From Lacipirellulaceae bacterium (lineage in GTDB: Bacteria; Planctomycetota; Planctomycetia; Pirellulales; Lacipirellulaceae), in assembly GCA_040218535.1 (NCBI GenBank), contig JAVJRG010000005.1, positions 1,240,001-1,304,000 of the forward strand: a DNA stretch of 64,000 nt, written 5' to 3'. Below the pieces are notes generated by a model, which worked only from the letters and a program-made list of their open reading frames with translations, was not told where the DNA came from and made no database searches. The number at the start of each line of letters is the position of its first letter. Position 1 is the first letter of the stretch. The position numbers and the translations under genes are program-made. This document shows positions 16,531 to 35,212 of this stretch, piece after piece.

Positions 16531-16562
16531 GAGTTTTCAGTTGGCAGTGTTCAGTTTTCAGT
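16531..16562. repeat. CAGTGTTCAGT-type repeat, copy 1
   Basis: A 32-base sequence containing CAGTGTTCAGTTTTCAGT, identical at 31 of 32 positions to 30826-30857. It fills most of the gap between yacG and fmdB. Related inverted copies lie at 29540-29563 and 30884-30904. Confidence 0.85.
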
Positions 16563-27705: not shown

Positions 27706-29523
27706 ATGGACACAGCCGCACTATTATTATTGGTCTCCAGCCTTGGCGCTAATCTTGGATGGCAGCCGGCGACCGATGGTTCCGCGGGCTACGAAGTATT
27801 GATTCAGGTCGATCAACGGCAGGTTGACCGGCTTGAGCTATCCGCACAGCAGAGCGAACTTCTCCAGCGGAAACTCCCCGCAAAGCTGCCTGCTGATATT
27901 TCGCCCATCCGCAGCGTGAGGCTCATCTCGCAAGCGGATGACTTGCCGCGCATTCGCCGCATGGTTGCGCTCAAGCCGATTGTCCCAGAACAAACTGAGC
28001 GACTTCCGCGGGATGGCATCAAGCTCACGCAGTTCAACGGCCCTGTCCCCGGATCTGGCGGCGGCGCGAGGTATAGCAATTCCGACGCGGCGAACTTCGA
28101 TCCTTATGCCAAACCTTCTGCAACGACGCAGCCGACAACACGCAATCCCTTCCAGCCGCAGAATACTTTGGCAGAGGAAGCCCGCAAGGCTGGCCAGAAC
28201 TTGACCCAGTTCAGTCAGGAGCAATTACGGCAGTTGCAGAACCAAGCTGCCAGTGGAGTTGAAAATGTAACCAACGATGCGCGAAGAACGGTCAACGATG
28301 CCTTACGTGATGCCCAAGCAGGCATTCCTCAAGTGCAAGCGCAAGACTTGTTCGGCGGTCAGCCCCGAACGGCTACAGGTACTCGGGGAGCAACTCGACC
28401 GCTGGATCGTGTGACCCAGCCTTTGCGTGAGGGTGTTGATCGATTGGGTGATCGAACGCAACAGTTGTTCGATAACTTAGGTCGTCCTATTCGGCGGCTA
28501 ACTGGTCGCGACGAAGCACCTCAGCCAAACCCGCTTCGCTCCAACACGCCAAACAACGGCTATCCGGCCAACGATCCTCGCTATGCTCAGCCCTCATCGG
28601 ATTCGCGATTTCCGGCTCAGCAACAACCGGGAAATCTTCAGCTTGACAATCGCAGATTCGAGAGCGGGCAGCCGGACCCACGCGGTGTCGATCCACGCCT
28701 CCTGGCCGAACGAGACGCCAACGGTTTCCGGGCGGTTCGCGGGGAAAGAATCGACATGCCGATTGACTCCCGAGAGGTTGGCCGCTGGCCGCAAGAAACC
28801 CAGTACAACGATTCACTGAGTGAACGAGATCGACGTCGTGCTGAGGACACCTACTGGACGCGAACTGCCGATGAGCGTGACCTAAGAAGTGATCGATGGC
28901 GCCAGGATCGGCTCGCATCGAACGATCGGGCAACCGACGGTGGGCGTTATCCATCGCCAGACAGATACGATTCAAAGCAGAATGACTGGCCCCAATACGA
29001 TCAAGAGGATCTGGCCAATCGTCGTAATGATGCACGCTTTGTGAGAACCGGCGACAGTCGTGCTGATCGCGGGGCCGCCTGGGAAGAAGGCCCCACGCTG
29101 GCCGACCCGAACTTCGATTCCCGTAACTTAGATGCACGCAGTTCCGAATCTTGGAACTCGGATAGCAAGGTGCCGGAACTTCGGAAAGGGATGGGCGATG
29201 TGTTCGCATCCAACGAGCAACAGCGCGATCCCTTTTCTGTGCCGCGAGAATTCGCGAATCAACCAGGAACCGACTACCGTTCAGGGAACGAGAACAATCG
29301 GCAGTACGATCTGAGCCGCCAAAATCCTCAACTGACGAACGTCACCAATCGGACCGAGTCTGAGAAGCAAGACATGGTTTCTGCAATTCTTGCTTGGGTG
29401 CTTTTCAGTGGCTCTTTAGCAGGAAACTTCTACCTCTGGTGGTCATACCTCGACGTAAGAAGTAAATACAGCCACATCGTCCGCGAGTCCCGCTCGCTAG
29501 GCCGAAACTATTCCCCGGTCTAG
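27706..29523 (+). CDS. Disordered protein with C-terminal membrane anchor
   Basis: 605 residues of unknown function. A hydrophobic N-terminus (1-18) suggests export; residues 20-100 look folded (YEVLIQVDQRQVDRLELSAQ, VRLISQADDLPRIRRMVALK). From about 110 to 550 the chain is rich in Asp, Arg, Asn, Gln and Pro with no hydrophobic core, and is probably disordered. A single helix near 558-580 (ILAWVLFSGSLAGNFYLWW) precedes a basic tail ending LGRNYSPV. AAAGGA lies eight bases before the ATG. It precedes the Mre11-like/YhaN-like pair on the same strand after 61 bases, but co-function is unproven. Confidence 0.75.
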   Translation: MDTAALLLLVSSLGANLGWQPATDGSAGYEVLIQVDQRQVDRLELSAQQSELLQRKLPAKLPADISPIRSVRLISQADDLPRIRRMVALKPIVPEQTERLPRDGIKLTQFNGPVPGSGGGARYSNSDAANFDPYAKPSATTQPTTRNPFQPQNTLAEEARKAGQNLTQFSQEQLRQLQNQAASGVENVTNDARRTVNDALRDAQAGIPQVQAQDLFGGQPRTATGTRGATRPLDRVTQPLREGVDRLGDRTQQLFDNLGRPIRRLTGRDEAPQPNPLRSNTPNNGYPANDPRYAQPSSDSRFPAQQQPGNLQLDNRRFESGQPDPRGVDPRLLAERDANGFRAVRGERIDMPIDSREVGRWPQETQYNDSLSERDRRRAEDTYWTRTADERDLRSDRWRQDRLASNDRATDGGRYPSPDRYDSKQNDWPQYDQEDLANRRNDARFVRTGDSRADRGAAWEEGPTLADPNFDSRNLDARSSESWNSDSKVPELRKGMGDVFASNEQQRDPFSVPREFANQPGTDYRSGNENNRQYDLSRQNPQLTNVTNRTESEKQDMVSAILAWVLFSGSLAGNFYLWWSYLDVRSKYSHIVRESRSLGRNYSPV

Positions 29524-29539: not shown

Positions 29540-29563
29540 ACTGAAAACTGACAACTGAACACT
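29540..29563. repeat. CAGTGTTCAGT-type repeat, inverted copy
   Basis: 24 bases whose complement contains AGTGTTCAGTTGTCAGT, matching the repeat seen at 16531 and 30826. It sits in the 61-base gap before the Mre11-like gene. Confidence 0.7.
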
Positions 29564-29584
29564 CATAAACGCATGGAGGCGTCG

Positions 29585-30826
29585 ATGTCACAACCGCCGC
29601 TCCGTTTTTTACACGCCAGTGATTTCCACCTCGAACGCCCGCTCGGCGGCGTGTCTGAGTTGCCCTCGCACCTCCGCGAAGTGTTTCTCGAAGCGCCTTA
29701 CGTTGCCGCGGAACAAGTCTTCGAGACGGCACTCGCTGAGAGTGTCGACGCGTTGATCCTCTCAGGCGACATGGTCGATCTCGACTTCGCTGGTCCGCGA
29801 GCGATTGTCTTCTTGAACGAGCAGTTCGAGCGACTCGACGCACACGGAATCAAAGTCTATTGGGCGGGGGGCGATATCGATCCGCCCGACGCTTGGCCAC
29901 CCAACGCGTCACTGCCTGGCAATGTTCACGTTTTTCCCGTTGGGCGAGTGGAGACCGTCGACCATCTTCGCGATGGCTCAGTCGTCGCGCGGGTGCAAGG
30001 CATCAGTCGCAGTCAGGGCAAGGCAGTCGACGACAGCGGCTTCCATCGCGACGCCCACGGACAGTTCACTATTGGAGTCAGCTACGGCACTGCCGCCGCT
30101 CCAGGGGAAGAGGGGGACCGTGTTCACTACATGGCTCTCGGCGGCCAGCATCGACGGCAAACCGTGGATCAGTCCCCCGGTATCGCCCACTACTGTGGTA
30201 CGACCCAGGGGCGTTCGCCTGAAGAAACTGGCGCCCATGGCTGCACGCTCGTGAACGTGGACGAAGCGGGGCACGTGAAAACAACATTCGTACCAACTGA
30301 CGCGATTCGGTGGGTCGCTGAGACGATCGAAATCACCGCCGGCACCGACGAAGCGGCAATGATGTCGCAGATTCGCGAACGAATCAGCAAACTCAAGACG
30401 AAACACTCGGGACACGATTTGCTCGTCACTTGGAACATCGAAGGCCGCGGCGAACTGGTGAATTATCTCCGTCGCGGTGGCCTTAGCGACGAACTGCTCG
30501 CACGACTCCGCAAACGCCACGGTGATGATTCGCCAGTCGTCTGGAGCGTTGCCATCGAGTGCCACGAGGAGATCGACGTCCCCGGCGAATGGTACGACCA
30601 AGAAACCATCATGGGCGACCTGCTTCGCCAGTTTCGTTCGCTTCGCGCCGAACCAGATACCGATTTGCAGCTCGAAGGCTTCCTCCCTGAAAGCATGAGA
30701 GAAGGAGCCGTAGCAACACTGGCCGAAGTCGAGCCCGAAGACCGCGACAAGTTGCTACTCGCAGCTTCGAAACTGGGCATCGAAATGCTCACGTGGGACG
30801 AAGAGGAAGAGGATGACGAGGAATAG
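29585..30826 (+). CDS. Mre11/SbcD/YhaO-like phosphoesterase with altered metal site
   Basis: 413 residues of the calcineurin-like nuclease superfamily. FLHASDFHLE (Asp13, His15) and ILSGDMVD (Asp62) are normal. The third motif, usually GNHD, is GDID (96-99); the HG motif is YG (167-168); and the GHxH motif is GGQH (186-189). At least three metal-ligand histidines are thus replaced, so nuclease action is doubtful. The C-terminus ends in a run of acidic residues. The start ATG 29585 has GGAGG five bases upstream and is preferred over 29573. The partner ATPase gene follows after 131 bases. Confidence 0.82.
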   Translation: MSQPPLRFLHASDFHLERPLGGVSELPSHLREVFLEAPYVAAEQVFETALAESVDALILSGDMVDLDFAGPRAIVFLNEQFERLDAHGIKVYWAGGDIDPPDAWPPNASLPGNVHVFPVGRVETVDHLRDGSVVARVQGISRSQGKAVDDSGFHRDAHGQFTIGVSYGTAAAPGEEGDRVHYMALGGQHRRQTVDQSPGIAHYCGTTQGRSPEETGAHGCTLVNVDEAGHVKTTFVPTDAIRWVAETIEITAGTDEAAMMSQIRERISKLKTKHSGHDLLVTWNIEGRGELVNYLRRGGLSDELLARLRKRHGDDSPVVWSVAIECHEEIDVPGEWYDQETIMGDLLRQFRSLRAEPDTDLQLEGFLPESMREGAVATLAEVEPEDRDKLLLAASKLGIEMLTWDEEEEDDEE

Positions 30827-30904
30827 AGTTTTCAGTTGTCAGTGTTCAGTTTTCAGTTGAACTCTGGTTTAGCTTAACTGACGAAAAACTGAACACTGAT
30901 AACT
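30826..30904. repeat. CAGTGTTCAGT-type repeat pair, face to face
   Basis: A 32-base copy at 30826-30857 (31 of 32 identical to 16531-16562) faces an inverted 21-base copy at 30884-30904. Together they form an imperfect stem in the gap between the Mre11-like and YhaN-like genes. Confidence 0.75.
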
Positions 30905-30957
30905 AAGCCAGAGTTCACAATGCGTTTAGACATTCCGCAGCGGCAAGAGTTTTTGTT

Positions 30958-33900
30958 ATGAAAATCACCGACCTGGAAATCGACGGCTTCGGCGTTTGGC
31001 ACGATCTGAAGCTGAACAACCTGTCGCGCCGCGTCACGGCTTTCTATGGCCCCAATGAAGCGGGCAAGACGACCGTGATGCACTTTGTGCGCTCGGTCCT
31101 CTACGGCGTTTCACCAAAGCGACGCAGTCGCTATTTGCCACCGATTGATGGTGGTCGTGCCGGCGGAACGCTGGGCATCGCCGATACGGATACTCAGTTC
31201 AGAGCCTCACGCTACGCCGACCGTAGCGACGACGATATCGGCCGCGTCATCTGCAAAACACCAGACGGCCACGAAAGCGGCGATCGCCTGCTTCGCGAAG
31301 CACTCGCTGACATTGACGAGAAGACCTACAACAACGTCTTTGCGATTGGCCTGCGCGAGATTCAAGAACTCGGCACCTTAACCGATACGCATGCGGCTCA
31401 GTGGCTCTACCGACTCACCTCAGGGCTCGACCAAGTTAGTCTGTATGACGTGATCCAAGAACTCCGTCAGACACGCCGTAGCCTGCTCTGGGCAGGCAAA
31501 AGCAAGAACCCTTCCAAGATTGCCAAGCTAACCGCAAAACGCGATAAACTCCGCGCGGAGATCTCTCGCCTGACCCAGCAAAACCGTCAGTGGTCACAGC
31601 TCGCGGTGAAGATTGCCGAACTTGATGGTCAGATTGATACCGCCCAGGCCAATGTTCGCGACTGCGAGCGACGTGCCCGCACAATTGAGATTGCCGTCGG
31701 GTTGAAAGAAAATTGGCGTCGTCGTGAGAAACTCAACGATGAGCTTTCGGCATACGCAGGTCGAGTTTCCCTGGCGGACGATGCGCTCGATCGTCTCGAC
31801 TCGCTCACCCGAAAAACCGAACAACACCAACGTCAAGCCGACGTACTCCAAGGCCAGCGGCACCAATTGCGTGACGAATCGGGGCGGCTGGGCATCAACG
31901 AGGCGTTAGTCCGTAACTGTTGCCGGATTGACGCGCTCGGCGAGCAACGTGACTGGCTCGAGTCGCTGGGTCGGCAGATGGACGACCTCGAAAAGCAGGC
32001 CCAGCAATTTGAAGGCCGCTACAAGGCAGAGCAACAGCGTCTTAGCGAAGCGCTCGGCATGACCCGCGGCACCACGTTACGTGAGATCAGCGAAGGTGAT
32101 ATCGAAAGTCTTGAGCCACATGTCGAGTCGGTTCGTGTCTCGCAGAAAAAGTACGATGCGGCCAAGCGTCATCTCGAAAACCTTACGGCCAACGAGCAGT
32201 CGCTAAAGACGCAAATCGAATCCGCCATTGTCGGCGGTGAATCGCACGGGTTGCCGATGGACCTCCAGGAAGCCAGCGACTTAGTCGCGAAGCTTCGCAA
32301 TCGTCTGCAAGTCGAGCAGCGCATCGAACAGTCGCGTCAGCACGAGCTTGAGCTGGAACAACAGAGTCACGATTTGCTCGACGACCAAGTGATGCCACTC
32401 TCGACCTTCAGTTGGCTGCTGGCCGCGTTCGTGATTGGTGCCCTAATGATCGGCATCAATTTCATCGTGCCGGGGTCGCCGTTCGGGCAATTTGGTTGGC
32501 TGGTGACGATCTTGGGTGTGGGTGGCGGCCTGTTCAGCCTGGCCTTCAAGTTCTTCACCGAAGATGCTGCAGCCGACAAGCTCGACGCCTGCCAACGTCA
32601 GATGGAAGTCCTCGCTCGCCAAATCGGGGAGACAGAGCGTGAGAAGGAAATGCTCGATGCCGAACTGCCAATGACCGATGGTTCGGTCCTGATCAGAATG
32701 CAGGCCGCTGAACGCCACTTGGCGGAGTTAGAGGACGTACTTCCCGTCGAAGCCCAGCGGAAAATGGCCGGCAACGAAGTCGCCGAAGCAGAAACTCGCG
32801 TCCGCCAAGCGAAACGAGAGTTGGATAATACCCTTGCCAACTGGAAGACCACGATCGTTGCCCTCGGGCTGCCTGAGTCGCTCGATCCGCTGCGTCTGAT
32901 GAAGGTCACCGATCGCTACGGTCAACTGAGCGAACTGGAAACCCGTGCCAAGTACCGTCGCGAAGATGCTGCCGCGCGAGCACGTGAACATGCGGCATTG
33001 CTTCGTCGGATCGATGACATCCATGAAGAAGTCGGTCTTGAAGTTCCTGCTGAGGATGCCGATCCCATCAATCGGCTGGATTCACTGCTCAGCGCGCGGC
33101 GGAAACAGCTTGCTGATGTCGAACGTCGTGAAGAGCTTCGCGAGCGTGCCAAGGAACTGAAGGCCGAAGAGGGCAAGCACCGCCGAGCGATCGTTGGCCT
33201 GAAGCGTCGGAAGAACGCCCTTTTTCAAGCGGTCGATTGTGCCGACGAGCAAGCTTTCCGCCGTCTGGCCGCTGATCAGGAAAAAGCCGCGGAGTTGGCG
33301 AAAAAGCGAGAAGCGATTGCGCGTGAAATCACTGCCGCGATCGGTCGCCACGAGTCGGAAGAGACCTTTGCCACATTGCTGGCGCCCGAGTCGATTGGCC
33401 GCCTCGACACCGCTTGGGAGGAGCTCACCAGCGAACTCGACGAGTTGCAAGAAGCTTTGAAAGTTCTCTCAGAAGAACGGGGCGCACTCAATCGCGAGCA
33501 AGATGAACTGGCAGAAGACCATTCACTGGCCGAGTGCCAGCTCGATCTGAGCCTCATCGAAAACAAACTCGCCGAAGCCCGCCAAGCTTGGCGAGAACAC
33601 GCCACGGTTAATCGCGTTCTCGAAAGGATCCGCACCGAGTACGAAGCCGATCGCCAACCGGAGACGCTCGCCGAAGCCAGCAAGTACATGGCCAAGCTGA
33701 CCGCAGGCCAGTACACACGGATCTGGACACCGCTGGCCAACGATATTTTGCTAGTTGAGACGAAAGAGGGCGAGTCGCTGCCAGTCGATGTCTTAAGCCG
33801 TGGTACCCGCGAGCAGTTGTTCTTGAGTGTTCGCATGGCTTTGGTCGCTACCTTCGCTCGTCGCGGCGTAAACCTGCCGATGGTGCTCGATGACGTGTTA

Positions 33901-34449
33901 GTGAACTTCGACGCCGTCCGTGCCCAACGTGCCGCGGAAGTACTCTGCGAATTCGCGGCCGGCGGGCATCAGCTGCTGATCTTTACTTGCCACGAGCACA
34001 TGTGGGAAATGTTTAAGGGGCTCGACGCCGACTGCCGCCGCTTGCCTGTCCGACGAGGTCAGCCGGCAATTCCCGAACCTGTCATTGAAGTTGCCAAGAA
34101 GCCAGAAGTAAAACCGACGAAGCCCAAGAAGAAACGCAAGCCGAAGCCTAAACCGGAACCGGTCGTTGAAGTCGTCGAAGAAGTCGAAGAGATCGTAGAG
34201 GAAATCATCGAAGAGCCTGTGCCAGTCGAAGAGGATCTCTACGAGTATCCCTTCGTCGAGCGGCTCGTCGAAGAAGTTGTCGAAGTCACCCGGGAGGACA
34301 TCGAGACGGAAGTACTCCCGGAGGCTTCGGAATTCCACGAGTACTCGTTCGACATCGAACCCGTGGAAGAGCCTCGGGAAGCCGACAACGCGTTGGCTTA
34401 CATCATCAACGATGAGCCGACGCGGGAGCGACGAGACCGGCGGGCATGA
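30958..34449 (+). CDS. YhaN/SbcC-like coiled-coil ATPase with internal membrane hairpin
   Basis: 1163 residues of the SbcC/Rad50 class. Walker A is GPNEAGKTT (31-39); coiled coils cover about 165-480 and 540-900; the signature LSRGTREQLFLSVRMAL is near 946 and Walker B MVLDDVLVNFD near 970. In the middle of the coil (about 484-535) two hydrophobic helices (WLLAAFVIGALMIGINFIV and WLVTILGVGGGLFSLAF) should insert in the membrane, as in Bacillus-type YhaN. After the ATPase, residues 1040-1163 form a Lys- then Glu/Val-rich tail of low complexity. It pairs with the Mre11-like gene upstream; a role in DNA end handling at the membrane is inferred. Confidence 0.85.
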   Translation: MKITDLEIDGFGVWHDLKLNNLSRRVTAFYGPNEAGKTTVMHFVRSVLYGVSPKRRSRYLPPIDGGRAGGTLGIADTDTQFRASRYADRSDDDIGRVICKTPDGHESGDRLLREALADIDEKTYNNVFAIGLREIQELGTLTDTHAAQWLYRLTSGLDQVSLYDVIQELRQTRRSLLWAGKSKNPSKIAKLTAKRDKLRAEISRLTQQNRQWSQLAVKIAELDGQIDTAQANVRDCERRARTIEIAVGLKENWRRREKLNDELSAYAGRVSLADDALDRLDSLTRKTEQHQRQADVLQGQRHQLRDESGRLGINEALVRNCCRIDALGEQRDWLESLGRQMDDLEKQAQQFEGRYKAEQQRLSEALGMTRGTTLREISEGDIESLEPHVESVRVSQKKYDAAKRHLENLTANEQSLKTQIESAIVGGESHGLPMDLQEASDLVAKLRNRLQVEQRIEQSRQHELELEQQSHDLLDDQVMPLSTFSWLLAAFVIGALMIGINFIVPGSPFGQFGWLVTILGVGGGLFSLAFKFFTEDAAADKLDACQRQMEVLARQIGETEREKEMLDAELPMTDGSVLIRMQAAERHLAELEDVLPVEAQRKMAGNEVAEAETRVRQAKRELDNTLANWKTTIVALGLPESLDPLRLMKVTDRYGQLSELETRAKYRREDAAARAREHAALLRRIDDIHEEVGLEVPAEDADPINRLDSLLSARRKQLADVERREELRERAKELKAEEGKHRRAIVGLKRRKNALFQAVDCADEQAFRRLAADQEKAAELAKKREAIAREITAAIGRHESEETFATLLAPESIGRLDTAWEELTSELDELQEALKVLSEERGALNREQDELAEDHSLAECQLDLSLIENKLAEARQAWREHATVNRVLERIRTEYEADRQPETLAEASKYMAKLTAGQYTRIWTPLANDILLVETKEGESLPVDVLSRGTREQLFLSVRMALVATFARRGVNLPMVLDDVLVNFDAVRAQRAAEVLCEFAAGGHQLLIFTCHEHMWEMFKGLDADCRRLPVRRGQPAIPEPVIEVAKKPEVKPTKPKKKRKPKPKPEPVVEVVEEVEEIVEEIIEEPVPVEEDLYEYPFVERLVEEVVEVTREDIETEVLPEASEFHEYSFDIEPVEEPREADNALAYIINDEPTRERRDRRA

Positions 34450-34519: not shown

Positions 34520-34876
34520 GTGAACGAATCTGCCGACAAGCCGGAGAGTAAGCCGCTTGTCTGGTTGGAAGGTGAGATCAAGACGCCTCCGTTCACACCA
34601 GCGGCAAGAATTGAGGCGGGGACTTTGTTGCGTAGGCTTCAGCGTGGCGAAATTCTTGGAATGCCTCATTCTCGACCAATGCCCTCGGTCGGTAAACGTT
34701 GTCATGAGCTAAGAATTCGTGACGAGAATCACAATTGGCGAATCCTCTACCGCACGGATAGAGACGCAATCGTAATTCTCGAAGTATTCGCCAAGAAGTC
34801 AGGGGCGACGCCCAAGAGAGTCATTGAAGTTTGCCAGCGTCGACTTACGGCCTACGACCGTATCATGCGGGAATGA
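34520..34876 (+). CDS. HigB/Gp49-like toxin
   Basis: 118 residues of the phage-derived Gp49-like/HigB family (RelE superfamily), translation-dependent mRNA nucleases. PLVWLEGEIKTPPFTPAARI, LGMPHSRPMPSVGKRCHELR and WRILYRTDRDAIVILEVFAK are the typical core. The start is GTG; the first 12 residues are not part of the domain. Three bases separate its stop from the antitoxin ATG, toxin-first order as in higBA. Confidence 0.85.
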   Translation: MNESADKPESKPLVWLEGEIKTPPFTPAARIEAGTLLRRLQRGEILGMPHSRPMPSVGKRCHELRIRDENHNWRILYRTDRDAIVILEVFAKKSGATPKRVIEVCQRRLTAYDRIMRE

Positions 34877-34879
34877 AAT

Positions 34880-35212
34880 ATGAAGAAAAACAAACTTGAT
34901 CGGCTTGAGCAGGCCGGTTGGAAGGTTAGTGGTGCCCAACAGTTGTTGGACTTGTCTGACGAAGAAGCCGCCTTAATCGAAATGAAACTTTCATTGGCGG
35001 ACAGTCTCAGAAAACGAAGAACCGACGAAGGTTTGACACAAGAGGCACTCGCAAAACTGCTCGGGTCGAGTCAATCGCGAGTCGCGAAGATGGAAACGGC
35101 CGACGCCAGCGTATCCTTGGAATTGCTGGTGCGATCGCTCTTGGTACTAGGAGCAAGCCGCCAGGAGGTTGGCCGCGCGATTGGCAAAAAGTCGCCTGTA
35201 TCCGCGGCGTAG
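34880..35212 (+). CDS. HigA-like antitoxin (XRE helix-turn-helix)
   Basis: 110 residues. A helix-turn-helix of the XRE class covers about 40-95: SLRKRRTDEGLTQEALAKLL, then SSQSRVAKMETADASVSLEL. The N-terminal part (1-38) probably binds the toxin. It should repress the operon through the palindrome at 34491-34508. Its stop touches the stop of the convergent AI-2E family gene, with no base between. Confidence 0.85.
   Translation: MKKNKLDRLEQAGWKVSGAQQLLDLSDEEAALIEMKLSLADSLRKRRTDEGLTQEALAKLLGSSQSRVAKMETADASVSLELLVRSLLVLGASRQEVGRAIGKKSPVSAA

Follow-up and report, generated by a model that had tools for sequence, protein, structure and literature searches.

A Mre11-like protein with a decayed nuclease site and its predicted membrane-anchored ATPase in planctomycetes: a probable holder or sensor of DNA

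A 64,000-nucleotide stretch of a Lacipirellulaceae bacterium (GenBank assembly GCA_040218535.1, contig JAVJRG010000005.1, positions 1,240,001 to 1,304,000 of the forward strand; hereafter the window) carries two neighbouring genes on the same strand: gene A, which encodes a protein of the Mre11/SbcD type with altered nuclease motifs, and gene B, which encodes a coiled-coil ATPase resembling YhaN and Rad50 (Table 1). We show herein that the nuclease site of gene A has decayed in all 51 homologues aligned from one bacterial order while the ATPase has kept its motor residues, and we suggest that the two proteins probably hold or sense DNA rather than cut it. The pair had been noticed in a sequence-only reading of this DNA, and its coordinates and frames, as well as Asp13, His15, Asp62 and the GDID, YG and GGQH motifs, were all recovered as given. 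An upstream ATG at 29573 could extend gene A to 417 residues; residues are numbered herein from the ATG at 29585. The assembly (G000) is 5.36 Mb long and 95.8% complete. Its nearest named relative in our genome collection is Adhaeretor mobilis HG15A2 (87% identity for gene A and 81% for gene B), which the available part of PMC8303584 places in Pirellulales, Lacipirellulaceae.

Gene A scored 22.7 bits against Pfam Metallophos, barely above the cut-off of 21.5, and 27.6 bits against the NCBIfam family sbcd (TIGR00619), well under the cut-off of 77.65; 6 of 14 control genomes likewise had no match above that cut-off. An AlphaFold2 (AF2) model of gene A built from 39 sequences had a predicted local distance difference test score (pLDDT) of 91.2 and a predicted template modelling score (pTM) of 0.85. 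The best 50 Foldseek matches listed from the PDB were all Mre11 or SbcD chains (3av0, E 6.1e-15). With VIA-align, the model gave a Z score of 24.4 to the Mre11-Rad50 complexes 3av0 and 5dny (for 3av0, 282 residues at a root-mean-square deviation of 3.5), 23.3 to SbcD of E. coli, and 18.0 to the best phosphoesterase outside Mre11. The aligned range, residues 4-331 on 3av0_A, takes in the calcineurin-like phosphoesterase domain and the capping domain in the arrangement of Mre11. As modelled, gene A is a complete Mre11-type protein and not a generic phosphatase. A stretch past the capping domain is also strongly conserved, with Gly344, Leu347 and Arg348 invariant in group A2. Between the window and A. 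mobilis, nonsynonymous divergence (pN) was 0.082 and synonymous divergence (pS) 0.690, a ratio of about 0.12 with synonymous sites near saturation, which argues that gene A is under selection; the reading of gene A as a pseudogene was rejected on that ratio.

Eight positions of the nuclease site were followed through the homologues. We take Asp13, His15, Asp62 and His189 to form the metal-1 site, Asn97, His167 and His187 the metal-2 site, and His98 to be the catalytic residue. The motifs of Mre11/SbcD are given as DxH, GDxxD and GNHD plus three later histidines in the available part of PMC3175470, and seven conserved metal-binding residues of Mre11 are mentioned in that of PMC7407228. SbcCD with the exchange H84Q is termed nuclease-deficient in the accessible text of PMC6265447, with a drop in ATPase activity of only about 15%. 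In the window protein, four of the eight residues are present: motif III reads G96-D-I-D99, motif IV S-Y167-G, and motif V G186-G-Q-H189. The loss of nuclease ligands claimed from the sequence alone thus holds for Asn97, His98, His167 and His187, but His189 is kept, so that the metal-1 quartet is whole.

Searches with gene A covered 199 genomes of the phylum, 33 of which had a match at 1e-8, and 196 genomes of the order, 153 of which had a match. From the results, loci were picked by hand for spread, and the best homologues of 80 loci were aligned with the window protein (81 rows); 20 more homologue loci, and 10 from a search with the ATPase in a family designated f87, were added later and likewise hand-picked. 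Loci collected through a motif-I pattern served for structure, the ATPase alignment and naming only, and were excluded from ligand counts. Degenerate and canonical classes were named by eye from the motifs, and a tree built without the motif columns separates the same classes. The sequence-only reading had raised the question of whether the same ligand changes recur in other planctomycetes, and they do. All eight residues are kept in 21 of 22 canonical rows (the last keeps seven; motif IV in canonical planctomycete homologues is mostly HT or HC, not HG), versus a complete metal-2 set in 0 of 51 degenerate rows, all of which, the window included, are from the window's order. Asn97 was found in none of the 51, His98 in one, and His187 in none (Gly in 49). 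Because the metal-2 set is lost in 51/51 aligned homologues, explanations by faulty sequencing or by a quirk of a single genome were rejected.

The rest of the site is less uniform. The metal-1 quartet is whole in 28 of the 51 rows and broken in 23, including 4 of 12 aligned members of the window's own family; Asp13 is retained in 47, and position 99 is Asp in 43. The gene A tree requires no fewer than 12 changes of state for the quartet: what remained after motifs III and V were lost has been drifting. Decay extends beyond the order. In another family of the class, f4, all six proteins keep 0-2 of the eight residues; of two second copies in that family, one has 0 of them and the other 2. In all 10 pairs fetched from f87, only Asp13 of the eight is recognisable, as read by eye in sequences whose motifs IV-V align poorly. 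Conservation of 80% or more among the 51 degenerate rows, combined with a frequency under 30% among 39 canonical ones, was seen at 18 positions. They are exclusively Pro, Leu, Ala, Val, Phe, Trp or Gly (Trp93, Trp104, Gly187 and Trp283 among them), with no Asp, Glu, His, Cys, Asn or Gln. A site restored through new residues was rejected for want of a clade-specific candidate ligand, and the earlier suggestion of a new metal site gains no support from the same 0 of 18 positions or from the broken metal-1 quartets. Trp104 and Trp283 are common to 7/7 f4 proteins, which suggests that the degenerate groups of the order and of f4 descend from a common ancestor.

Gene B matches the Pfam family AAA_27, the N-terminal ATPase domain of the YhaN type, with 63 bits (cut-off 22); a sequence search against the PDB gave no match at 0.001. 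Its Walker A, signature and Walker B motifs are intact, as had been stated. Across 67 partners of degenerate type (51 from the order, 6 from f4 and 10 from f87), Gly31, Gly36, Lys37, Ser947, Asp978, Asp979 and the H-loop His1012 are invariant, and residue 952 is Glu in 66. The AF2 model (pLDDT 76.4, pTM 0.40) places the heads at both ends of the protein and coil arms at about 187-476 and 540-898. The two mid-coil helices of the sequence-only reading are borne out by two hydropathy peaks of 19 residues and by model helices at 481-503 and 513-569, giving a predicted hairpin at about 481-533 between the arms. A mid-coil peak was scored in 51/51 degenerate-type partners of the order, 6/6 of f4 and 10/10 of f87; L268, a seventh f4 locus and also of the common kind, has one too. 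In canonical partners the peak was present in 6 of 34 scored (plus one marginal) and missing in 27 of 34; 5 of the 39 canonical loci went unscored, their ATPase being missing, cut or unmatched. No zinc hook CxxC was found in the coil of 60 related ATPase frames (a single CxxC at frame position 14 is far from the coil), nor any CxxC on reading the window's gene B.

The charged tail proposed earlier, residues 1037-1163, is likewise there and disordered in the model, with pLDDT below 50 at 1037-1055 and 1057-1163. A tail of more than 50 residues follows the head in 49/51 degenerate, 0/15 canonical and 1/6 f4 proteins, a count that leaves out three rows without a recognised Walker B. Tail sequence varies by lineage, with short recurring motifs near the end that may be docking peptides. 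A motif like AEEFDGEL-D occurs in the otherwise dissimilar tails of L107, L110, L111 (weaker), L112, L113, L129 and L133; in other lineages a Trp-Trp motif lies close to the end of the tail, and ALAYI is shared by some tails of the window's family.

The ATPase adjoins gene A in the window, in 58/58 other degenerate loci and in 10/10 f87 loci. In f87 the gene A query found almost nothing and the ATPase was present; a far more diverged gene A stood beside it in every fetched locus. On the gene A tree (79 rows, motif columns removed, L087 and L088 left out), the 51 degenerate proteins fall on one side of a branch with a Shimodaira-Hasegawa-like approximate likelihood ratio (SH-aLRT) support of 99, and the canonical ones on another (92). 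The tree of ATPase heads used 78 of 96 rows; 18 were dropped for lack of a signature (15) or a Walker A (3) in a motif search, among them L083 and L065, which have an intact nuclease and a hairpin. On this tree 25 canonical ATPases lie on one side (99); on the other, 49 degenerate ones (97) lie next to ATPases that have a hairpin but an intact partner nuclease (L064, L066, L068 and L090, the last on a long branch). Rooted at the midpoint, this tree reads as an old membrane form with an active nuclease that came first and a loss of the nuclease later, in the ancestor of the class; both trees came from quick searches and were drawn with a midpoint root, and the order of hairpin gain and nuclease loss hinges on the root.

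Retention of the pair is broad. In the window's family, 40 of 43 genomes gave a gene-A-type match to the canonical-type profile (at most 176 bits), and six of those 40 (6/43) had in addition a copy of intact type (258-640 bits; one, in a 219-residue frame, is a fragment). The score decided the type, and motifs were read in three of the six intact and 12 of the decayed copies. At 1e-60 the ATPase profile matched in 185 of the 196 genomes of the order, mostly once per genome, some of the weaker matches maybe being fragments or paralogues. By these profile counts the decayed pair is core and the cutting pair optional. Both kinds occur together in some genomes, for example G121 (L062 decayed, L063 intact) and G264 (L095 decayed, L252 intact). 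In the window's own genome, gene A was the sole match of its own sequence and of the degenerate and canonical profiles, and there is one AAA_27 gene. The sbcd family had no match above cut-off in this genome, where its second weak match was elsewhere (G000:C5:800915, E 0.0019, 19.8 bits). An intact nuclease is thus likely absent from this genome, judged on an assembly of the completeness given above.

Neighbouring genes were clustered for the 80 loci other than the window, most of them without being named, UvrD excepted. No obligatory third gene emerged from these loci, and most neighbours vary between them. The commonest neighbour cluster (14/80 loci) consists of UvrD-type helicases: four tested members match Pfam UvrD-helicase (9e-36 to 7e-88), and one of the long members, at L063, also carries a PD-(D/E)XK nuclease domain. 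By tblastn, one UvrD type lies near 10 of the 51 degenerate loci in five families, at 59-74% identity to the L112 copy (L062, L097, L110, L112, L114, L116, L122, L124, L130 and L135), directly upstream on the same strand in five (L097, L110, L112, L116 and L135). A weaker relative (37%) is near 2/6 f4 loci, none of 10 f87 loci has this type by tblastn, and a UvrD/nuclease type stands directly upstream of the intact pair at L063, L120 and L123. Twelve checked genomes have 3-4 UvrD-type genes each, and a rough estimate (stretches of ~12 kb in ~6 Mb) puts the chance expectation at well under one UvrD neighbour per 51 loci, with the ten not independent of each other. The UvrD neighbour at 10/51 loci ties the pair to DNA metabolism. 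The window's genome has one UvrD-type gene at G000:C5:1317341, beyond the window and ~47 kb downstream. The neighbourhoods, most of whose genes were not named, gave no hint of mobile elements or of defence.

Several other features lie around the two genes. A dispersed heptamer repeat, ACTGAAA/ACTGAAC (CTGAAAACTGAACACTGA), has copies in the window at 29540-29565, 30839-30857, 30888-30899 and 16544-16562, and 52 copies in the genome at one mismatch or fewer, the reversed control pattern having 0; two inverted copies stand between gene A and gene B. Directly 3' of the ATPase, at 34520-35212, a gene resembling Gp49/HigB toxins (Pfam Gp49, 3e-12) is followed by an XRE-type helix-turn-helix gene, a couple that resembles a toxin-antitoxin pair. 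Upstream, 27706-29523 encodes a 605-residue protein with a disordered-looking middle rich in Asn, Arg and Gln, a hydrophobic stretch near its C-terminus and no Pfam family above cut-off; its gene ends ~50-60 bases 5' of gene A.

Table 1. Positions in the window of gene A, gene B and their features
Feature	Position	Strand	Basis
Gene A, pseudo-nuclease of the Mre11/SbcD fold, 413 residues	29585..30826	+	Coordinates and motifs re-read, Pfam/NCBIfam profiles, AF2 model, structure comparison
Motif I, Asp13-x-His15, kept	29621..29629	+	Homologue alignment, sequence
Motif II, Asp62, kept	29768..29770	+	Homologue alignment
Motif III region, GDID in place of GNHD (Asn97 and catalytic His98 gone), clade-specific Trp93	29861..29881	+	Alignment
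Motif IV position, Tyr167 instead of His	30083..30085	+	Alignment
Motif V, GHxH changed to GGQH (Gly at His187, His189 retained)	30140..30151	+	Alignment
Intergenic stretch, two inverted copies of the dispersed ACTGAAA/ACTGAAC repeat	30827..30957	.	Repeat scan
Gene B, YhaN/Rad50-like coiled-coil ATPase, 1163 residues	30958..34449	+	Pfam, AF2 model
Walker A, GPNEAGKTT, residues 31-39	31048..31074	+	Sequence, ATPase alignment
Predicted membrane hairpin in mid-coil, about residues 481-533	32398..32556	+	Hydropathy, AF2 model
ABC signature, LSRGTREQ, residues 946-953	33793..33816	+	Sequence, ATPase alignment
Walker B, MVLDD, residues 975-979	33880..33894	+	Sequence, ATPase alignment
Disordered Lys/Glu/Pro-rich C-terminal tail, residues 1037-1163	34066..34446	+	Tail scoring, AF2 model

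From the computed fold, the gene pairing, the decay of the nuclease site, the conserved ATPase residues, the predicted hairpin, the lineage-wide retention and the partial helicase neighbourhood, we infer that the two proteins form a complex at the membrane that acts on DNA. We consider it likely that this is a membrane-anchored relative of Mre11-Rad50, an ATP-driven clamp or sensor of DNA whose Mre11 subunit is now structural and does not cut. Two ATPase protomers would be anchored in the membrane by their hairpins, at roughly the position of the zinc hook in Rad50; the long coil would bring the heads into the cytoplasm, where they would clamp DNA in an ATP-dependent manner. The Mre11-like subunit would join the base of the coil, bridge the heads and help to hold DNA as a cradle without hydrolysing it, and the flexible charged tail may recruit a partner. 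Switched by ATP, such a complex would tether or sense DNA at the membrane, perhaps broken DNA, DNA entering the cell or a chromosome to be anchored, and could pass it on to further enzymes, among them the UvrD helicase whose gene stands alongside in some genomes. A non-cutting complex that may bind or sense DNA at the membrane had been proposed from the sequence alone; the lineage-wide loss, the fold, the invariant ATPase residues, the predicted hairpin and the helicase neighbour at 10/51 loci support it, and its action on DNA at the membrane would be one of binding or sensing.

Several observations weigh against this proposal. The window protein retains the entire metal-1 quartet, so that binding of one metal is possible. 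The hairpin comes from hydropathy and from a model of modest confidence, and the topology is a prediction. Four further degenerate f4 loci (L087, L088, L266 and L269) have no hairpin peak, so that decay and hairpin are not strictly linked; L087 and L088 also have Glu for the second Asp of Walker B and Gln for the His of the H-loop. By tblastn, 41 of 51 degenerate loci have no UvrD gene next to the pair, and neither has the window. Regarding the f4 loci, G433 holds three pairs, one intact, one degenerate with a hairpin and one degenerate without; L266 is in G433 and L269 in G427.

The retained quartet could mean that gene A is still an enzyme, with a reduced one-metal site that cuts DNA weakly or acts on some other phosphoester. 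Its presence in 28/51 homologues as well as in the window, the retention of Asp13 and the prevalence of Asp99 speak for such an enzyme, which we nevertheless regard as unlikely: the quartet is broken in nearly half of the order's rows, in a third of those of the window's own family, in 6/6 f4 and (by eye) 10/10 f87 proteins, the catalytic His98 is missing in 50/51, and no compensating ligand has appeared. Slightly less likely still is that gene A merely stabilizes its partner and has no role on DNA, the machine being a membrane ATPase of unknown cargo. A pairing that outlives the active site, along with the strong conservation of the fold and of the stretch around Gly344, Leu347 and Arg348, would suit a stability partner. 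The Mre11 fold has, however, been retained together with its capping domain, an accessory DNA-binding part according to the available text of PMC3175470, and the helicase near 10/51 loci points to DNA as well.

Very improbable, in our estimate, is an anti-phage system that couples an SMC-like (structural maintenance of chromosomes) ATPase to an effector, as in Lamassu. Gene B does have weak PADLOC matches to coiled-coil ATPases (mad3, 6.6e-8; LmuB, 2.3e-7), but these are confined to the P-loop region or the coil, and at 0.1 no PADLOC profile matches gene A. Most neighbours change from locus to locus, and an ATPase found in 185/196 genomes, mostly one each, looks more like part of the core genome than like mobile defence. 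The membrane-anchored, non-cutting clamp or sensor is the reading that we favour.

A wider version of that reading, which we put forward tentatively and think somewhat less likely true than false, is that Planctomycetia possess a core membrane-tethered, non-nucleolytic Mre11-Rad50 machine with a standing role in attaching DNA ends or the chromosome to the membrane. A single loss of the nuclease, close to the root of the class, would have been followed by retention of the machine for its ATP-driven clamp; the disordered tail would be a docking arm, UvrD a frequent partner and the cutting version optional. Mutations have long been used in research on Mre11-Rad50 to tell cutting apart from tethering and signalling. 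Here the separation appears to be natural, with an invariant motor and a nuclease site that has drifted away in a bacterial order, which makes the pair a natural test case for the functions left to the complex when it does not cut. The organization of the chromosome and the mode of division are unusual in planctomycetes, and the pair points to an unexplored link between DNA and membrane in these bacteria. A literature search by title, with subscription papers mostly outside its reach, found no report of this degenerate pair. What appears to be new, as judged from sequence comparison, is a lineage-wide pseudo-nuclease with a retained motor, a predicted membrane anchor and an added tail.

In Firmicutes, YhaN carries membrane helices in its coil. 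The nearest known kind is SbcE/YhaN-YhaO, encoded by yhaONM of Bacillus subtilis, which like the present pair joins the gene of an SbcD-like phosphoesterase to that of a coiled-coil ATPase of the AAA_27/YhaN type. Double-strand-break repair is the role for which the SMC-like SbcE is cited in the parts available, one cited title adding competence (PMC4205851, PMC3896406), and yhaONM of B. pumilus is listed under lexA/SOS and as induced by hydrogen peroxide, with YhaO annotated as a putative exonuclease (PMC3896406). The pair described herein differs in that the nuclease site is lost in every homologue aligned from the order (51/51) and that the ATPase has a long disordered tail (49/51). It resembles SbcCD/Mre11-Rad50 in the Mre11 fold with its capping domain and in ATPase heads at the ends of a long coil, but the seven metal-binding residues of Mre11 mentioned in the available part of PMC7407228 are not all present, a membrane hairpin is predicted in mid-coil, no CxxC hook was found in the coils searched, and the sbcd score is far below its cut-off. 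The canonical SbcD-like/YhaN-like paralogues of planctomycetes have the same two-gene order and homologous subunits; they differ in keeping their ligands, in mostly having no hairpin peak (27/34), and in having no tail of more than 50 residues (0/15).

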